A DNA stretch of 59,218 bases from Pseudolabrys sp. (GTDB lineage: Bacteria; Pseudomonadota; Alphaproteobacteria; Rhizobiales; Xanthobacteraceae), in the NCBI GenBank assembly GCA_019689975.1, contig JADGGK010000011.1, positions 1-59,218 of the forward strand. Direction: 5' to 3'. The translations under genes and the position numbers were made by a program. Under the pieces are notes generated by a model. That model ran no database searches, was not told the DNA's origin, and was given only the letters and a program-made list of their open reading frames with translations. Shown piece by piece: positions 29,978 to 37,311 of this stretch (within the stretch, counting starts at the first letter, position 1; every line of letters begins with the position of its first letter).

Positions 29978-30700
29978 ATGATGAGCCGGGGGGCCAAGAA
30001 ATCCGCCGCCTTGCGGCGGACCTCGCAGGCCCCTCGCGGCAATGTCCGCGGCGGGTCTCCCGCAGTCAAGCCGACCGGCGGCCGCAAAGGCGGCGCCGGA
30101 GAAGGAGTCATGCCCGGAATGTCCAGCAATAAGAAGACTACCCAACGACAAGGCTTCAAGACCAACGAGTTCGTCGTATATCCCGCTCATGGCGTGGGAC
30201 AAATCGTCTCAATCGAAGAGCAGGAGGTTGCCGGCGCCAAACTCGAACTGTTCGTCATCAACTTCGTCAAGGACAAGATGACGCTGCGCGTTCCCACCTC
30301 CAAGATCGCTTCGGTCGGCATGCGCAAGCTTGCTGAGCCGCCGCTGGTGAAAAAGGCGCTCGAGACGCTCAAGGGCCGTGCACGAATCAAGCGTACCATG
30401 TGGTCGCGCCGCGCGCAGGAGTACGAGGCCAAGATCAATTCTGGCGACATCGTCGCCATTGCGGAAGTGGTGCGCGATCTGTACCGCTCGGAGACGCAGC
30501 CGGAGCAGTCCTATTCCGAACGGCAGCTCTACGAAGCTGCGCTCGATCGTCTGTCGCGGGAGATATCGGCGGTCCAGAAGATCACCGAGACGGAAGCGGT
30601 GAAGGAGATCGAGGCCGCGCTCGCCAAAGGCCCGCGCCGCGGCCTCAAGCCTGCCGAGGAGTCGCCCGTCGAAGAAGCGGTCGAAGAGGAAGCAGCCTAA
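29978..30700 (+). CDS. CarD-family transcriptional regulator
   Basis: A CarD/CdnL-type protein of 240 residues. The RNA polymerase-interacting domain (GFKTNEFVVYPAHGVGQI onwards, to SVGMRKL) is followed by the DNA-binding helical domain (KRTMWSRRAQEYEAKINSGDIVAIAEVVRDLYR). CarD proteins bind the RNAP beta subunit and stabilise open promoter complexes, notably at rRNA genes. The C-terminus is acidic. The N-terminal 45 residues before the core are basic and low-complexity. Start is uncertain: ATG 29978 follows AAGG, ATG 30119 lies 11 nt after AAGGAG, and a GTG at 29933 lacks a ribosome site. The G/C-rich third positions upstream of 30119 favour the longer form. Confidence 0.85.
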   Translation: MMSRGAKKSAALRRTSQAPRGNVRGGSPAVKPTGGRKGGAGEGVMPGMSSNKKTTQRQGFKTNEFVVYPAHGVGQIVSIEEQEVAGAKLELFVINFVKDKMTLRVPTSKIASVGMRKLAEPPLVKKALETLKGRARIKRTMWSRRAQEYEAKINSGDIVAIAEVVRDLYRSETQPEQSYSERQLYEAALDRLSREISAVQKITETEAVKEIEAALAKGPRRGLKPAEESPVEEAVEEEAA

Positions 30701-30769
30701 CTTGGGTTTCGATCGCATTGAATCGACCCCGTCGTTGCGAGGAGCCGCGACGGGGCGATGTCGCTTGCC

Positions 30770-30901
30770 CCGTCATTGCGAGGCAGCGACGCCGCAGAAG
30801 CAATCCAGTCACAGTCCGTGCCACAGACTCAATGCCCGCATTCGCAGACCTACCGTTTCTGGATTGCTTCGCCCTCGCTCCGCTCGGGCTCGCAATGACG
30901 G
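30770..30901. repeat. Palindromic intergenic repeat, copy 1
   Basis: An inverted repeat of about 132 bp. The outer arms are CCGTCATTGCGAGG (30770) and CGCAATGACGG (30891); the inner arms are GAAGCAATCCAG (30797) and CTGGATTGCTTC (30859). It can fold into a long hairpin. Elements of this kind are, as I recall, scattered through Bradyrhizobium/Rhodopseudomonas-like genomes. A partial start (GTCGTTGCGAGGAGC) lies just before it at 30731. Confidence 0.8.
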
Positions 30902-30911
30902 CGAATGTGAC

Positions 30912-31017
30912 CCGTCATTGCGAGGCGGCGCGAGCCGCCGAAGCAATCCAGTCTCTGTCGTGTCACAGGCACGATGCCTGCATTCGTGGCATTGCCGTTT
31001 CTGGATTGCTCTGATGT
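30912..31017. repeat. Palindromic intergenic repeat, copy 2 (right arm missing or displaced)
   Basis: A second tandem copy, offset 142 bp from copy 1: CCGTCATTGCGAGGC (30912), GAAGCAATCCAG (30940) and CTGGATTGCTC (31001). The central part is also similar to copy 1. The outer right arm is not present directly after; a degenerate version appears at about 31072-31102. Confidence 0.75.
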
Positions 31018-31050
31018 CCCAAGTCAAGCCGTGAGGCACGACTCTCCTTG

Positions 31051-31072
31051 CGGCCAGCAGTTTTGCTGGCCG
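31051..31072. repeat. Perfect 9-bp hairpin
   Basis: CGGCCAGCA and TGCTGGCCG flank a GTTT loop. It sits between the truncated right end of repeat copy 2 and a degenerate right-arm sequence. No T tract follows, so it is not a typical terminator. Confidence 0.6.
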
Positions 31073-31722
31073 CCCTCGCTTCGCTCGGGCTGGTCATGAC
31101 GGGCCAATATCGCCGGCATCCGCGCCGCCTGGGCCGCTGAACAACCGAGCGACGTTCGCGACCCGAGTCCCATCCGGCTCCGCGACCGGTGGTCTACGGT
31201 CACGGTCGAAGCAGGTTTCCCAGCGACCGATGTCGGCGGAGCGGTGTCGCAAGAGGGAACAATATGTCGAGGCGCAATCCGCGGCCGCCATCGACTGATG
31301 CCTGTCTCCCCGCCCCGCAAACCGGTTTCGGGAAATGCCGTGCCGCCAATCCGTCATCGCGACAATCGGCGGTTCAATGCATACGGAAGTAAGGCACGCG
31401 GAGCAGGCGGATCGCGATTTTTTAGAGCATTGCGCGCCAACCCGGTCTCGGCGCTCATCCTGTGACAGCGGAGGGGAATCCGGTGCGCAAACAGAATCGG
31501 ATAACGGAAGTTTACAACAGGCGGCCGAGCCGGTCCTCCATCCGAATGCGAGAAATTCTGCCCGCACCACCGCATGAACCATCAATCTGTGATCCGGAAC
31601 AGGGACATTGGTGGGCGCATGCGCTGCATGTCCTCACGCAAGCGTGATCCGTCAACGCCTATTCAGATTTAAAGGCCACGCTAAGCTCCGTGCGGCGCAC
31701 AAGCAACGGAAGCAGATCCGCG

Positions 31723-32466
31723 ATGTCGTACCGCATGTCACTTGATTGCGACCGCCGTGCGATGCTCGGTGGTTTGAGCATGGTCTTCCTTGCCGTCGTG
31801 ACGCGACCGTCATCCCTATTGGCACAGACTGGGAACAAGTTGCGTATCGGCATCATCGGTTCGGGGAAAATCGGCGGCACCATCGGCGGCCTGTGGGTCA
31901 AGGCCGGACATCCCGTGTTGTTTTCCTCGCGTCATCCCGAAGCGCTGAAAGAGCTCGCCGCCGGGCTTGGCCCGCTGGCACAAACCGGCACGGTGGCTCA
32001 GGCGATTCAATTCGGAGACGTCATTTTCATTGCCGTCCCGTACGGGGCCTTGCCGCAGATCGGAAGAGACTACGCGAGCGCGCTCAAGAACAAGATCGTG
32101 CTTGATGCCTGCAATGCAGTCGCCGCACGCGATGGGGCTATTGCCGACGAGGTCGAACAAAACGGCATCGGGGTCACGTCGCAAAAATATCTCGCCGGCA
32201 CACGGCTGGTACGTGCTTTCAACACGATATCATACGCGATCTTCGCGCGCGAGGCGAATCGCCCCGCGCCGCGGCTCGCGGTCCCCATCGCTGGCGACGA
32301 CCCGGAAGCGGTGCAGGTCGCCGCGGCACTGGTGCGCGACGCGGGATTCGATCCGGTCGTCGTGGGTAAGCTCGTGGATGCGCGGCGGTTTCAACGCGGT
32401 AATCCCGGCTACGGGCAGCCGGTAGGCGCCGACGAGCTCCGGAAGAAGCTCAACTTGCCGCAATGA
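31723..32466 (+). CDS. NADPH:F420-reductase-like Rossmann protein with Tat-type signal
   Basis: A 247-residue protein. After the leader, a Rossmann fold starts with IGIIGSGKIGG (42-52), as in NADPH-dependent F420 reductases and related NADP-binding dehydrogenases. VIFIAVPYGALPQI, VRAFNTIS and a C-terminal VVGKLVDARRFQ fit that family. The N-terminus has Arg11-Arg12 (DRRAMLGG), a hydrophobic stretch and a cleavage-like SLLAQ, so it looks Tat-exported, odd for a cofactor reductase. The ATG at 31723 is chosen; a GTG at 31690 and another ATG at 31735 are alternatives. It overlaps the next gene by 4 bp. The real substrate is unknown. Confidence 0.78.
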   Translation: MSYRMSLDCDRRAMLGGLSMVFLAVVTRPSSLLAQTGNKLRIGIIGSGKIGGTIGGLWVKAGHPVLFSSRHPEALKELAAGLGPLAQTGTVAQAIQFGDVIFIAVPYGALPQIGRDYASALKNKIVLDACNAVAARDGAIADEVEQNGIGVTSQKYLAGTRLVRAFNTISYAIFAREANRPAPRLAVPIAGDDPEAVQVAAALVRDAGFDPVVVGKLVDARRFQRGNPGYGQPVGADELRKKLNLPQ

Positions 32467-33767
32467 GCGCGCTGCAGCGCTGGGTGGCATGGGCGGCGCC
32501 GGCAACGCCGCGGGAGCGTGTGGCGGCCCTGTGGTCGTTTGCCTATTTTTTCACGTTGCTTGCCGGTTATTACGTGCTGCGGCCACTGCGCGATCAGATG
32601 GGAATTGCCGGTGGCGTTAGGAATCTGCCGTGGCTGTTCACGGCCACGTTTCTTGCACTGCTGATGGCCCAGCCGCTCTATGGGGCCTTGGTGGCAAAAT
32701 TGCCACGCTCGCGATTCATCCCCGTTGTCTATCATTTCTTCGTCGGCAATCTCGTCCTTTTCTGGCTGCTGCTCGTCTTTGGCGTCGAGGTGGCAATCGT
32801 GGCCCGGATCTTTTTTGTCTGGGTAAGCGTATTTAACCTGTTTGCGGTTGCCGTGTTCTGGTCGTTCATGGCGGATCTGTTCGATGCCGAACAAGGCAAG
32901 CGGCTGTTCGGTTTCATCGGCGCCGGCGGGACGGCAGGCGCCTTGTTGGGTCCGCTCCTTACAATTGTGCTATCGGAGCCTTTGGGACCGACAAATTTGC
33001 TGATTCCGGCTGCGGTGCTTCTTGAAGTAGCGGTCTTTTGCGTACATCGCCTCGAACGGGTTTCGACGGCGCAGTCAGGTGCCGCGCAGGTGCATGAGCG
33101 TATCGGCGGCGGCGCGCTTGCCGCCATACCCGAACTCGTCCGCTCCCCCTATCTTGCCGGTGTCGGGCTTTGGGTTAGCCTATTGTCCTTCGGCGCGACC
33201 ACTCTCTATTTCGAACAAGCCCATATCGTGGCGGCGACGGTGCATGGCGCGGCGACGCAAACGCGTCTGTTTGCCAGCATCGATCTGGCGGTCAATCTGC
33301 TCACGTTGATCACGCAAATATTCGCGACGGGCCGATTACTCAAACGCCTTGGCTCGGGCGTTGCGGCAGGCGCGCTGCCGGCGGTATACATCGCGGGGTT
33401 TGCGGCATTGTTTCTGTTGCCGACGCTGGCGATGGTGCTGGTCGTTCAGGTGGCGCAGCGTTGGATGAATTTCGCCGTGGCCAATCCGGCACGGCAGGTT
33501 TTCTTCACGGTGATGATGCGTGAAGAAAAGTACAAGGCGAAAAACCTGATTGACGTGGTCATCTACCGCGGCTCGGACGCCTTGTACGGCTGGATGTTCG
33601 ACAGCGTGCAGGCATTGGGATTGAAGCTCGGTGCCATCGCACTTGCGGCTTTGCCTGTCGCCGTCGGCTGGTTTGTGCTGTCGCTTGGCCTCGGTCGCGC
33701 GCAGGAGCGGCGTGCGGCAAAGCTCGCGACGACGGCAGCAAAAGAAGTAAAAGAGGAAGTCGCATGA
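32463..33767 (+). CDS. MFS-like membrane transporter of the NTP/NDP-exchanger type
   Basis: A 434-residue polytopic membrane protein with about 12 hydrophobic segments. The N-terminal ERVAALWSFAYFF..YYVLRPLRDQMG and the FWSFMADLFDAEQGKRLFGFIGAGGTAGA block resemble proteins annotated as NTP/NDP exchange transporters or related MFS proteins. Rickettsial and plastid relatives swap ATP for ADP, but in free-living bacteria the substrate is not established. It is translationally coupled on both sides (ATGA overlaps), to two oxidoreductases with Tat-type signals, which hints at a shared nucleotide or cofactor theme (inference). Confidence 0.75.
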   Translation: MSALQRWVAWAAPATPRERVAALWSFAYFFTLLAGYYVLRPLRDQMGIAGGVRNLPWLFTATFLALLMAQPLYGALVAKLPRSRFIPVVYHFFVGNLVLFWLLLVFGVEVAIVARIFFVWVSVFNLFAVAVFWSFMADLFDAEQGKRLFGFIGAGGTAGALLGPLLTIVLSEPLGPTNLLIPAAVLLEVAVFCVHRLERVSTAQSGAAQVHERIGGGALAAIPELVRSPYLAGVGLWVSLLSFGATTLYFEQAHIVAATVHGAATQTRLFASIDLAVNLLTLITQIFATGRLLKRLGSGVAAGALPAVYIAGFAALFLLPTLAMVLVVQVAQRWMNFAVANPARQVFFTVMMREEKYKAKNLIDVVIYRGSDALYGWMFDSVQALGLKLGAIALAALPVAVGWFVLSLGLGRAQERRAAKLATTAAKEVKEEVA

Positions 33768-34657
33768 CCATGCGCATGACGCGACGGACATTCGCGATGC
33801 TGACCGCCTCGGTCGTGGCAGCGCGGGCTGTGTGGGCGCAGAATCGTGACCCGATCACCCGCGCCATTCCCTCGAGCGGTGAACTGCTTCCGGCCGTCGG
33901 CCTGGGAACGGCCGGGGTTTTCAATTCCGCCGATACGGCGACGGAAGAGAAGGCGGCCGCCGTCCTGCGGGCGCTGGTCGGCCACGGCGGCCGCCTGATC
34001 GATACCGCCTCGACCTACGGCGACGCCGAGGTCGTCCTAGGAAACGTGATCGCCTCCACCGGCCTGCGCGACAAGGTGTTTATTGCCACGAAATCCGAGG
34101 CTCCCGACATCGCGGAATTCAAGCGTTCGCTGACGCGGCTCAAGACCGCGAAGGTTGATCTCATGCAGCTTCACAACGTCACCGACCCCCACCAATCGCT
34201 CGCCCGATTCAAAGAGTGGAAGGCCGAGGGTCTGTGCCGCTATATCGGCATTACGTCGACTTTCCATGGCGATTATCCGGCGGTTGAAGCCGTGCTGAAG
34301 CGAGAAAAGCCGGATTTCGTTCAGATCGACTATTCGCTCGACAACCGTCTGGCCGAACGGCGAATCCTGCCGCTCGCCGCCGAAGTCAAGACGGGTGTGT
34401 TGACCGCCTTGCCCTTCGGTCGCGCACGCTTGTTCCGTGCAGTGCGGGGCCGGGAAATTCCCGCATGGGCGCGCGGCTTCGCTTCCAGCTGGGCGCAGTT
34501 CTTTCTCAAATACCTTCTGAGCGATTCTCGCGTGACAGCCGTCATTCCCGGCACGGCCAACGCGTCTCATATGATAGACAATCTGGGAGCGATGAACGGG
34601 TTACTCCCTGACCCTGACCAGCGCCGTCGGATGGTCGCCTTCGTCGAGGCGCTTTGA
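33764..34657 (+). CDS. Aldo/keto reductase with twin-arginine signal
   Basis: A 297-residue protein. The N-terminus TRRTFAML with Arg7-Arg8, a hydrophobic core and AVWA-Q cleavage site is a strong Tat signal. The mature part is an aldo/keto reductase with the catalytic tetrad visible: Asp80, Tyr85, Lys110 and His137 (MQLHNV). RYIGITSTFHGDY and the C-terminal VIPGTANASHM fit the family's barrel. These enzymes reduce carbonyls with NADPH, normally in the cytosol; export after folding with cofactor would explain Tat use. It starts within the stop of the transporter gene. Confidence 0.88.
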   Translation: MTMRMTRRTFAMLTASVVAARAVWAQNRDPITRAIPSSGELLPAVGLGTAGVFNSADTATEEKAAAVLRALVGHGGRLIDTASTYGDAEVVLGNVIASTGLRDKVFIATKSEAPDIAEFKRSLTRLKTAKVDLMQLHNVTDPHQSLARFKEWKAEGLCRYIGITSTFHGDYPAVEAVLKREKPDFVQIDYSLDNRLAERRILPLAAEVKTGVLTALPFGRARLFRAVRGREIPAWARGFASSWAQFFLKYLLSDSRVTAVIPGTANASHMIDNLGAMNGLLPDPDQRRRMVAFVEAL

Positions 34658-34750
34658 CGACAACTCCGCATGTGCAAATCAGCCTTGCCCCTGGGTGCGG
34701 TAGCGGATTAGATAGTCGCCACGCATTGTCGCTAATGCAGGATACAAACG

Positions 34751-35716
34751 ATGACCGCCATTCGTGGCTATGTCGCCCCAACGACCGAACGCGACGCCCT
34801 CGGCGTCCACTCGCTTGACCAGTTCGTGCTGGCGGTGCCGGACGCCTCGGTGGCACAAGATTTTTACGGCAATTTTGGGCTGGACGTGCGTGCCAAGGGC
34901 AACGCACTCGAGCTCAAGACTTTCGGCCACGATCACCGTTGGGGTCTGATCGTCGAGGGAGCGAGTCGCAAGGCCTTGCATCACCTTTCGTTCGGCTGTT
35001 ACGCCGAGGACATGGCGCGGCTGAAAGCGCGTATTGAGGGCAACGGTATTAAGCTCATTGATCCGCCGCCGGGCTTCGAGAGCAACGGTTTCTGGTTTCG
35101 AAACCACGAAGGTGTGCTCATCGAAATCAAGGTCGGACCAAAAGTATCGCCTGACCGCAAATCGGAGAGCGAGTGGATCAGCGTGGGGCCAGGAAAGGCG
35201 GGTGCCACCACGCGGGAGAAGGCACCGCCGGTGCGGCCACGGCGACTTTCGCACGTGCTGCTTTTCACCCGTGACGTTGCCGCCTCGATCGATTTCTATC
35301 AGCGCAATTTGGGCCTGCGTCTATCGGACCGAGCCTCCGACATTGTTGCTTTCCTGCACGGCATTCACGGCAGCGATCATCATCTGCTCGCGCTGGTCAA
35401 ATCGAGTGCGCCGGGATTTCACCATTGCTCGTGGGACGTCGCCTCCGTTAACGACATCGGCCTCGGTGCAATGCGCATGGCCGATAAGGGTTGGACCAAA
35501 GGGTGGGGCCTCGGTCGCCACGTGCTCGGCTCGAACTATTTCCATTATGTACGCGATCCGTGGGGCAGTTTCTCGGAATATTCGTGCGACATCGACTATA
35601 TTCCGAAGAACGAGCGGTGGTCCGCAGGCGATCACAAACCCGAGGATTCCTTCTACCTGTGGGGGCCGGAGGTGCCGCGCGAGTTCACCATCAATTACGA
35701 AGCGGGCGAAAGCTGA
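34751..35716 (+). CDS. Two-domain VOC protein, extradiol ring-cleavage dioxygenase-like
   Basis: A 321-residue protein with two vicinal oxygen chelate modules (about 18-130 and 165-290). Candidate iron ligands of the type I extradiol enzymes are present in the second module: His168 (LSHVLLFTRD), His224 or His225 (GFHHCSWDV) and Glu276 (FSEYSCD). The family cleaves catecholic rings next to the hydroxyl groups. The substrate is unknown. It starts 93 bp after the aldo/keto reductase on the same strand and may share its transcript. No other clear aromatic-degradation genes are adjacent; a FAH-family gene lies at 57.3 kb. Confidence 0.82.
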   Translation: MTAIRGYVAPTTERDALGVHSLDQFVLAVPDASVAQDFYGNFGLDVRAKGNALELKTFGHDHRWGLIVEGASRKALHHLSFGCYAEDMARLKARIEGNGIKLIDPPPGFESNGFWFRNHEGVLIEIKVGPKVSPDRKSESEWISVGPGKAGATTREKAPPVRPRRLSHVLLFTRDVAASIDFYQRNLGLRLSDRASDIVAFLHGIHGSDHHLLALVKSSAPGFHHCSWDVASVNDIGLGAMRMADKGWTKGWGLGRHVLGSNYFHYVRDPWGSFSEYSCDIDYIPKNERWSAGDHKPEDSFYLWGPEVPREFTINYEAGES

Positions 35717-35847
35717 CGATAACGGGACTTGATTTCGGCTTATTCATGTTGCCGCAAGTCCTGCTGTGCCAGAAATCCACTTGGATCGCGCAACGCACGC
35801 GATCGACCTGCGCCGTGTGATGCCATCATGCATTGTCGCAGCCGGTT

Positions 35848-37311
35848 CTATTCGACGACCAGCTTGACCTGCATGCCCGGCTTCAACTGGTCGTGCGCCT
35901 CGAGGCCATTGAGCGTCAGGAATCGTTCCAGCTTGTGATCGGCGACTGCCATCCGATGCGCGAGTGATTGGATGGTATCGTCCGGCCCGACGGTGACGAT
36001 CTTGATGTGGGGCGGACGGACCTGCGCGATCTCTTTCAGGCTCATGCGGCGGAAGCTCTCGACCGACTCGCGGAAGGATCGGTCGATCTGCGGCGTCATG
36101 GCCTTGGCCGCGAAGATGAATCTGTAGACATCGCTTCCGAACCGAACGACGTAAAGTCGGAACGACCAGTCCTTGCCGACGGCGGTAGCGGTTGCGGCGG
36201 GGAAGCCGTTGATGGTCAATGAACGCACGCTAGACGGGTCAACATGTTCCATCCAGCCTGACATGAGGTAATCCGTGAGCGATTGCTCCGCGGGAACGCT
36301 GACCGAATCCAGGCGCAGAGCCTCGTGCCCGCCGTCTTTGAGGCCGAGCACCGCCTGCGTGGTGTTGTCGAGCGTAAAGCCCGCAGGCGCCGTGAAGGAG
36401 AAACCGAGCTTGCCGTGCACGAATCGGCGACCGCGCACGAAGCCCTCGCTCGGATCCTCGCCGTAAACCAGGCCGTCCAGATCGGCGAGATATTCGGCAT
36501 GGTCACGTTCGCCGTTGCCCGGCGCAGCGAATTGGCGGGCATTGGCGAGCGCATTCTTCACGCGATCGGGGGTTGCCGGATGCGTGGAGAGAAAATCCAC
36601 GGTGTGGATGCTGTTGGCTAAGCCGGAGGATTGCAGCTCCGCATTGCGTTGCAAATCCGTGAGCATGCGTGCTGCGCCGTACGGATCGAACCCGGCCCGC
36701 GCGATAATGCCGACGCCAATGCCATCTGCCTCGAATTCCTGGGCGCGGGAGAAAGTGGCCAGCGTGAGCTTCGATTTCGCAAGGGCGAGCGCGCTCATCT
36801 GCGGATCCTTTACGATGTCGGCGATGGTCCGGCTTGCAATCGCCGCTTCGCGCGCCTGCTCCTCGCGAATCTCGGCATGACGCGCGATGACGTGGCCCAT
36901 TTCGTGCGCCAATACGGAAGCGAGCTCGGATTTGTCGTTGGCAAGCGCAATCAGGCCACGCGTTACGTAGAGACGTCCGTCCGGCAGCGCGAAGGCGTTG
37001 ATGGCCGGCGAGTTGAGAATCGTCACCTTGTATTTAAGTCCTGGGCGCTCGGAGGCCGCAACCAGCCGCGCCACGGTGGACTCGAGCATCTGCTGCAGGC
37101 GCTCGTTGACATAGGCCCCGCCATAGGCGGCGAGGATACGCTGGTGTTCGCGTTCGGCAGGGGATGCGAGCTCGGCCTGATTCGGCCGCGGCATGGGCAG
37201 GTCAGCGTGCTGCGTATCCGGAATTGCGGCGCAGGCCGCAAGCGCCAGGGCGAGCACGACGAACAGCGGGCCTATCCGCCATCCGGATGGTGATGTGACC
37301 GTTGCGCCCAT
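35848..37311 (-). CDS. M48-family metalloprotease lipoprotein with LysM-like C-terminus
   Basis: A 487-residue envelope protease. The signal ends in LAAC with Cys27, suggesting lipid attachment. The zinc motif HEMGH is at 136-140, with a downstream EFEADGIG supplying the third ligand. This places it with the M48 BepA/YggG-type proteases that police outer-membrane protein assembly. The last 50 residues (VGPDDTIQSLAHRMAVAD to LKPGMQVKL) look like a LysM-type peptidoglycan-binding module. It is convergent with the dioxygenase-like gene, and the SNase-like gene lies 4 bp before its start region on the same strand. Confidence 0.9.
   Translation of the reverse strand: MGATVTSPSGWRIGPLFVVLALALAACAAIPDTQHADLPMPRPNQAELASPAEREHQRILAAYGGAYVNERLQQMLESTVARLVAASERPGLKYKVTILNSPAINAFALPDGRLYVTRGLIALANDKSELASVLAHEMGHVIARHAEIREEQAREAAIASRTIADIVKDPQMSALALAKSKLTLATFSRAQEFEADGIGVGIIARAGFDPYGAARMLTDLQRNAELQSSGLANSIHTVDFLSTHPATPDRVKNALANARQFAAPGNGERDHAEYLADLDGLVYGEDPSEGFVRGRRFVHGKLGFSFTAPAGFTLDNTTQAVLGLKDGGHEALRLDSVSVPAEQSLTDYLMSGWMEHVDPSSVRSLTINGFPAATATAVGKDWSFRLYVVRFGSDVYRFIFAAKAMTPQIDRSFRESVESFRRMSLKEIAQVRPPHIKIVTVGPDDTIQSLAHRMAVADHKLERFLTLNGLEAHDQLKPGMQVKLVVE

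Follow-up and report, generated by a model that had tools for sequence, protein, structure and literature searches.

What joins two oxidoreductases with export-type leaders to a membrane protein of the nucleotide-exchanger type? The question is raised by a three-gene operon of Pseudolabrys sp. (assembly GCA_019689975.1, contig JADGGK010000011.1, positions 1 to 59,218 of the forward strand; this stretch of 59,218 nucleotides is referred to as the window). The genes, here called A, B and C, are coupled through 4-base ATGA overlaps, and the open reading frames, strand and coordinates given in an earlier reading of this DNA (the original prediction) all proved correct. The features are:

31723..32466, + strand: gene A, a Rossmann dinucleotide-binding protein of 247 aa resembling F420:NADP oxidoreductase (FNO) and STEAP, predicted to be exported (PF03807, PDB matches, conservation of leader and motifs)
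31723..31827, + strand: predicted twin-arginine leader of A, RR at residues 11-12 and an SLLAQ end (sequence)
32463..32466, + strand: ATGA overlap of the A stop and the B start
32463..33767, + strand: gene B, an inner-membrane protein of the major facilitator superfamily (MFS), NTT/TLC (ATP/ADP translocator) type, 434 aa
33764..33767, + strand: ATGA overlap of the B stop and the C start
33764..34657, + strand: gene C, an aldo/keto reductase (AKR) of 297 aa with a twin-arginine leader, predicted to be exported (PF00248, conservation of leader and motifs)
33764..33841, + strand: predicted twin-arginine leader of C, RR at residues 7-8 and an AVWAQ end (sequence)

Comparison with other genomes revealed that the general unit is B together with at least one NAD(P)-oxidoreductase that is predicted to be exported, and that A-B-C is one variant only. 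Partners were found by profile alone and their leaders were tested afterwards by a simple rule. Among the best 80 of at least 575 loci, a set that leans towards close relatives, 63 have A and/or C no more than 1.5 kb from B and on its strand; the partnered loci come from alpha- and betaproteobacteria (Variovorax and Bradyrhizobium isolates included) and from a few metagenome-assembled genomes (MAGs) of other names. A whole-genome set, drawn evenly from the class, the phylum and the class of genome G152 plus five genomes of one order, supplied 70 distinct B genes (the window's own included; at least 200 bits, at least 250 aa, locus given or fetched), and 52 of them are partnered; 20 regions of this set were fetched, chiefly for B genes that had come without a partner or without a locus. 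Six of 12 plasmid records with B were examined and four of the six B stretches are partnered, as B-A in Azotobacter and Pantoea pPAT9B04, B-AKR in Pantoea pPAT9B03 and C-B in Cupriavidus metallidurans, the Azotobacter and Pantoea cases being gammaproteobacterial. Pooled, 119 of 156 B genes are partnered: 68 with C, 27 with A and C, 17 with A, five with a classical short-chain dehydrogenase/reductase (SDR) and two with an atypical SDR. Loci L009-L016 were left out of the 156 and would add partnered cases (A-B-C in G034, C-B in G049, A-B in G057). Of the 147 gaps, 127 are at most 200 bases long. The partner has RR and a hydrophobic stretch for 106 of the 119 partnered B genes and a hydrophobic leader with no fitting RR for another 11, giving 117 with an export-type leader, Tat-like (twin-arginine translocation) or not; the remaining two are the Pantoea AKR of L128, where there is no room for a leader, and L217, where C is in two pieces in the assembly. 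Lack of conservation of the three-gene neighbourhood had been named beforehand as a refutation; the gene neighbourhood proved to be widely conserved. A fixed three-gene system is too narrow a description, since B-C, C-B, C-A-B, A-B, B-A and B with an SDR also occur.

Both outer genes had been credited with twin-arginine leaders. The N-terminus of A, MSYRMSLDCDRRAMLGG, has Arg11-Arg12, a hydrophobic stretch and the Ala-containing end SLLAQ; that of C, MTMRMTRRTFAML, has Arg7-Arg8, a hydrophobic stretch and the Ala-containing end AVWAQ. The leader test covered the segment that precedes the fold and that may extend upstream of the true start (the RR of L159 precedes its likely start), and it required RR closely followed by 10 uncharged residues with a mean hydropathy of at least 0.8. 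It was loosened before counting; a stricter version missed several clear leaders, including that of the window's own C. Loss of the leaders in relatives had also been named beforehand as a refutation; the leaders are kept far above the level of the same stretches shuffled, in 43 of 45 usable relatives of A (4.6 expected) and in 94 of 103 usable relatives of C (8.8 expected). Of the A rows, L166 and L167 fail; both have a hydrophobic leader with no fitting RR. Nine C rows fail: in five (L090, L119, L155, L156, L161) the leader contains RA or RK in place of RR, in two (L073, L031) the RR is followed by a core that is charged or short, and two (L026, L028) have no leader. A search for TatC (PF00902) found it in the window's genome (G000) with an E value of 1.2e-70. 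From these patterns we infer that A and C are exported, via Tat in the window organism.

The two enzymes belong to different families. A matches F420_oxidored (PF03807, E 1.9e-17 in Pfam), and its nearest PDB entries are 4huj, the FNO 5n2i, 2raf and STEAP3. Its GxGxxG glycines are invariant in 46 of 46 rows, which bears out the proposed F420-reductase-like Rossmann protein, and the pair S69-R70 after the second strand is kept as well (S69 in 42, R70 in 44 of 46 rows); we take this to be the S-R pair that contacts the NADP 2'-phosphate in FNO and STEAP. FNO and the FNO-like domain of STEAP have the Rossmann fold, GxGxxG and this S-R pair in common with A. A differs from them in its predicted export and in scoring below the equivalog cut-off for NpdG (F420:NADP reductase), an identity that we rejected at 38 bits against the 149.8 of TIGR01915. 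C matches Aldo_ket_red (PF00248, E 3.4e-32 in Pfam), and D80, Y85, K110 and H137, presumably the catalytic Asp-Tyr-Lys-His tetrad of the AKR family, each fall in the class conserved in at least 95% of 103 rows; the description of C as an aldo/keto reductase with an intact tetrad stands. Because GxGxxG, the S-R pair and the AKR tetrad are kept, A and C both retain a predicted dinucleotide site.

The suggestion that B is nucleotide-exchanger-like is supported at the level of family and fold. PF03219 (NTT/TLC) is matched by 25 of 49 members of the B alignment (best 4.2e-11), MFS_1 being matched by 47 of the 49, and the B fold is closer to NTT than to other MFS folds, with the proviso that families absent from the fold list carry no evidential weight. 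In an alignment to CpNTT1 a Glu stands opposite E143 in 100 of 155 rows and three lysines stand opposite K356, K358 and K360. In AtNTT1 the charged residues K155, E245, E385 and K527 are functionally important (PMC10654386); the B residues, placed by way of CpNTT1 and together with a Lys opposite R43 of CpNTT1, may correspond to three of these, K155, E245 and K527. NTT genes are described as widespread in free-living bacteria, the characterised ones coming from parasites, symbionts and organelles (PMC5381601), and B would adjoin carriers of ATP/ADP and, in the case of PamNTT4 and microsporidian NTTs, of NAD+ (PMC5381601; PMC5923384). B differs from the NTT/TLC carriers (PF03219; CpNTT1, AtNTT1, PamNTT4) in that no more than about half of the relatives tested match PF03219, in coming from free-living proteobacteria and in its linkage to exported oxidoreductases. 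The most likely candidate for its substrate is NAD(P)(H).

The partners of B differ in family, and almost all of them bear an export-type leader. Genomes G152, G554, G656 and G747 have two or three B genes each, one beside C and another beside an SDR that carries an N-terminal export-type leader. By inspection the SDR leaders contain RR in L203 and L194, look Sec-like in L193 and L195 and lipoprotein-like in L201, and the NAD_binding_10 (atypical SDR) partners L159 and L238 look Sec-like as well (Pfam was run on L159 only). In a quick tree of 154 B rows the partner labels need 18 changes, against a mean of 46.2 in 30 label shuffles; the 18 include shifts among A, C and A+C, and some branches are weakly supported. 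Partner type therefore appears to be inherited yet repeatedly changed, and SDR partners arise at two separate places on the tree. In L209 (4095-6764) two B genes stand in tandem, next to a C that shares their strand and an A that lies on the other one. B genes of family group f65 in L196, L197, L206 and L207 lack an A, C or SDR partner; near them Pfam identified a beta-lactamase-like serine hydrolase (in L197), and proteins resembling GMC oxidoreductases were noted by eye only.

Taken together, we favour a periplasmic redox module, with a probability of roughly one half: A and C would be exported NAD(P)-oxidoreductases and B would supply nicotinamide dinucleotide. A and C would be made in the cytoplasm and then exported, through Tat in the window organism. 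B would sit in the inner membrane as a carrier of NTT/TLC type and move the dinucleotide itself, for example by exporting NAD(P)H and taking in NAD(P)+, and this exchange would let A and C turn over in the periplasm. For its direction, and for the compounds that A and C would reduce, we rely on inference. Transport of NAD(P)(H) by B is the simplest reading because the partner types share an NAD(P) site and an export signal, and because B adjoins carriers of ATP/ADP and NAD+; the partners, of four families, share neither one fold family nor, as far as known, one substrate. The Sec-like partners matter here, few and judged by eye as they are, because a Sec substrate is unfolded when it crosses the membrane and has to acquire its cofactor on the far side. 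The charge difference between NADPH4- and NADP+3- equals that between ATP4- and ADP3-, the pair swapped by NTT exchangers, which makes an exchange of NADPH for NADP+ plausible and is not evidence for it. The wider proposal, that in many proteobacteria an NTT-type B exports or exchanges NAD(P)(H) for the periplasm and serves interchangeable exported enzymes from at least four families (AKR, FNO-like, SDR and atypical SDR), is tentative, somewhat short of an even bet. The original prediction of a periplasmic carbonyl-reducing system in which the transporter handles cofactor or nucleotide balance is in this way partly borne out: the cofactor link gains independent support from the pairing of B with exported SDRs and atypical SDRs, carbonyl reduction by A and C is a putative activity, and the fixed three-gene make-up is a single variant among several.

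Several observations weigh against supply of the cofactor by B. The window copy of B matches MFS_1 only (E 2.2e-8 in Pfam) and has no match to PF03219 at an E value of at most 0.01, and the Lys opposite R43 of CpNTT1, present in 154 of 154 rows, falls where the alignment is weak (5.6 bits). The 2'-phosphate-binding residues of C are not clearly conserved (K or R at position 266 in 56 of 103 rows), so that the motif does not separate NADPH from NADH as its cofactor. Of the 37 B genes counted as unpartnered, 29 have no detected partner, five have none but a cut flank and three have C on the opposite strand only; a clade of nine B genes has a single partnered member; and the Pantoea AKR of L128, counted as a partner, has no leader. 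Partners that look clearly non-Tat by eye number only about seven, and all leaders were judged by sequence pattern. Finally, 14 of the 20 related genomes with a strong relative of C (E of at most 1e-40, the window's own genome included) have no B. The AKRs of these 14 (L023-L036) are 33-40% identical to C and look exported; 11 of them pass the RR test and a twelfth (L031) has RR by eye. B is therefore not a general need of exported AKRs.

These last enzymes better fit the main rival explanation, which we nevertheless consider unlikely, namely that A and C are exported with tightly bound NADP(H) recycled by a second substrate, and that B moves a substrate or product. Such a module has a precedent in the Tat-exported, NADP-containing glucose-fructose oxidoreductase (GFOR) of Zymomonas (PMC7317946, PMC4628093), Tat does export folded, cofactor-bound proteins, and a B fold that is also general MFS would suit the part. 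Against it, partners of four families need no common substrate yet all bind NAD(P), the few Sec-like partners could not carry a cofactor along, B is nearest to nucleotide carriers, and Pfam reported no Gfo/Idh/MocA domain for A or C at an E value of at most 0.01.

More doubtful is an explanation in which B imports or recaptures nucleotides or NAD(P), the enzymes act on other things and the genes are linked because the same stress or growth condition calls for them. Uptake of nucleotides or NAD+ is what the characterised NTTs of parasites, symbionts and organelles do (PMC5381601, PMC5923384), and a B relative with 32% identity and no detected partner occurs in Mycetohabitans from the fungus Rhizopus. 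The tight and repeatedly re-formed linkage of B to leader-bearing NAD(P)-oxidoreductases argues otherwise, as does the ordinary size, about 2-7 Mb, of most genomes with B. So does one of the two linkage controls, 18 loci of distant TLC relatives (82-184 bits; L133-L148, L151, L190), 0 of which had an A, C or SDR partner; the other control was the C relatives without B described above. The proteins of L133-L148 form a separate NTT-like group, mostly about 410-470 aa and mostly of one genus code (f57 g90), and some of their genes lie, by eye, near serine-hydrolase-like genes.

Very improbable is the view that the leaders do not function and that the three genes serve conventional detoxification in the cytoplasm, together with an MFS efflux pump: AKR and Rossmann proteins are in general mostly cytoplasmic, the leaders were judged by pattern and the AKR beside B on Pantoea pPAT9B03 has none, but the leaders are retained in A and C relatives far more often than in shuffles, nearly every partnered B gene has a leader-bearing partner and TatC is present in the genome.

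Supply of NAD(P)(H) by B would, if true, provide a route for reducing power to the periplasm beside the quinol- and thiol-based ones. Bacteria are not known to have NAD(P) as a cofactor outside the inner membrane. The nearest known enzymes are Zymomonas GFOR and Caulobacter AAOR, Tat-exported NADP-dependent oxidoreductases as A and C are predicted to be, which unlike A and C belong to the Gfo/Idh/MocA family; their cofactor stays on the enzyme, and neither is known to have a dedicated carrier. CerR, the periplasmic ceramide reductase of Caulobacter, is comparable in its location, in that its NADH site is conserved and in that no source of reductant is known for it; it differs as an NDUFA9-like protein for which the accessible text describes no NTT-like partner, and that text states the source of reductant in the periplasm as an open question (PMC11087976). 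Major et al. (2017) treat the NTT genes of free-living bacteria, including fusions, and the accessible part of that paper mentions no oxidoreductase. Our literature search, with most subscription papers outside its reach, found no description of an association of B with exported oxidoreductases.

Within its genus the operon is patchy, since B is present in only 4 of 42 other genomes; the GC content of A, B and C (0.598-0.626) is similar to that of neighbouring genes. No promoter-like site was found in 31000-36000 and no Rfam match in 30600-35000. Between a CarD-like gene and gene A (30725-31102) lie intergenic repeats with arms CCGTCATTGCGAGG and CTCGCAATGACGG that resemble repetitive extragenic palindromic (REP) or other palindromic repeats. 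Directly 3' of C (34751-35716) is a two-domain extradiol-dioxygenase-like (VOC) gene, which we rejected as an operon member as it has no relative at an E value of at most 1e-5 in the 80 B loci. Near B in betaproteobacterial loci are genes for TctC, TctA, FAA hydrolase, ApbA and UGSC; they are confined to a group of related loci, and the metabolic context they might offer was set aside on that account. Some betaproteobacterial loci (L098, 10321-13226; L102, L117, L093, L095) have a second, more distant AKR; the genes after it fall into clusters with a DUF6279 protein and with an aminotransferase, as identified by Pfam for the copies in L098. Among the betaproteobacterial MAGs with a similar B, four (L083, L093, L112, L113) are titled Bordetella parapertussis, a species name that may be wrong.
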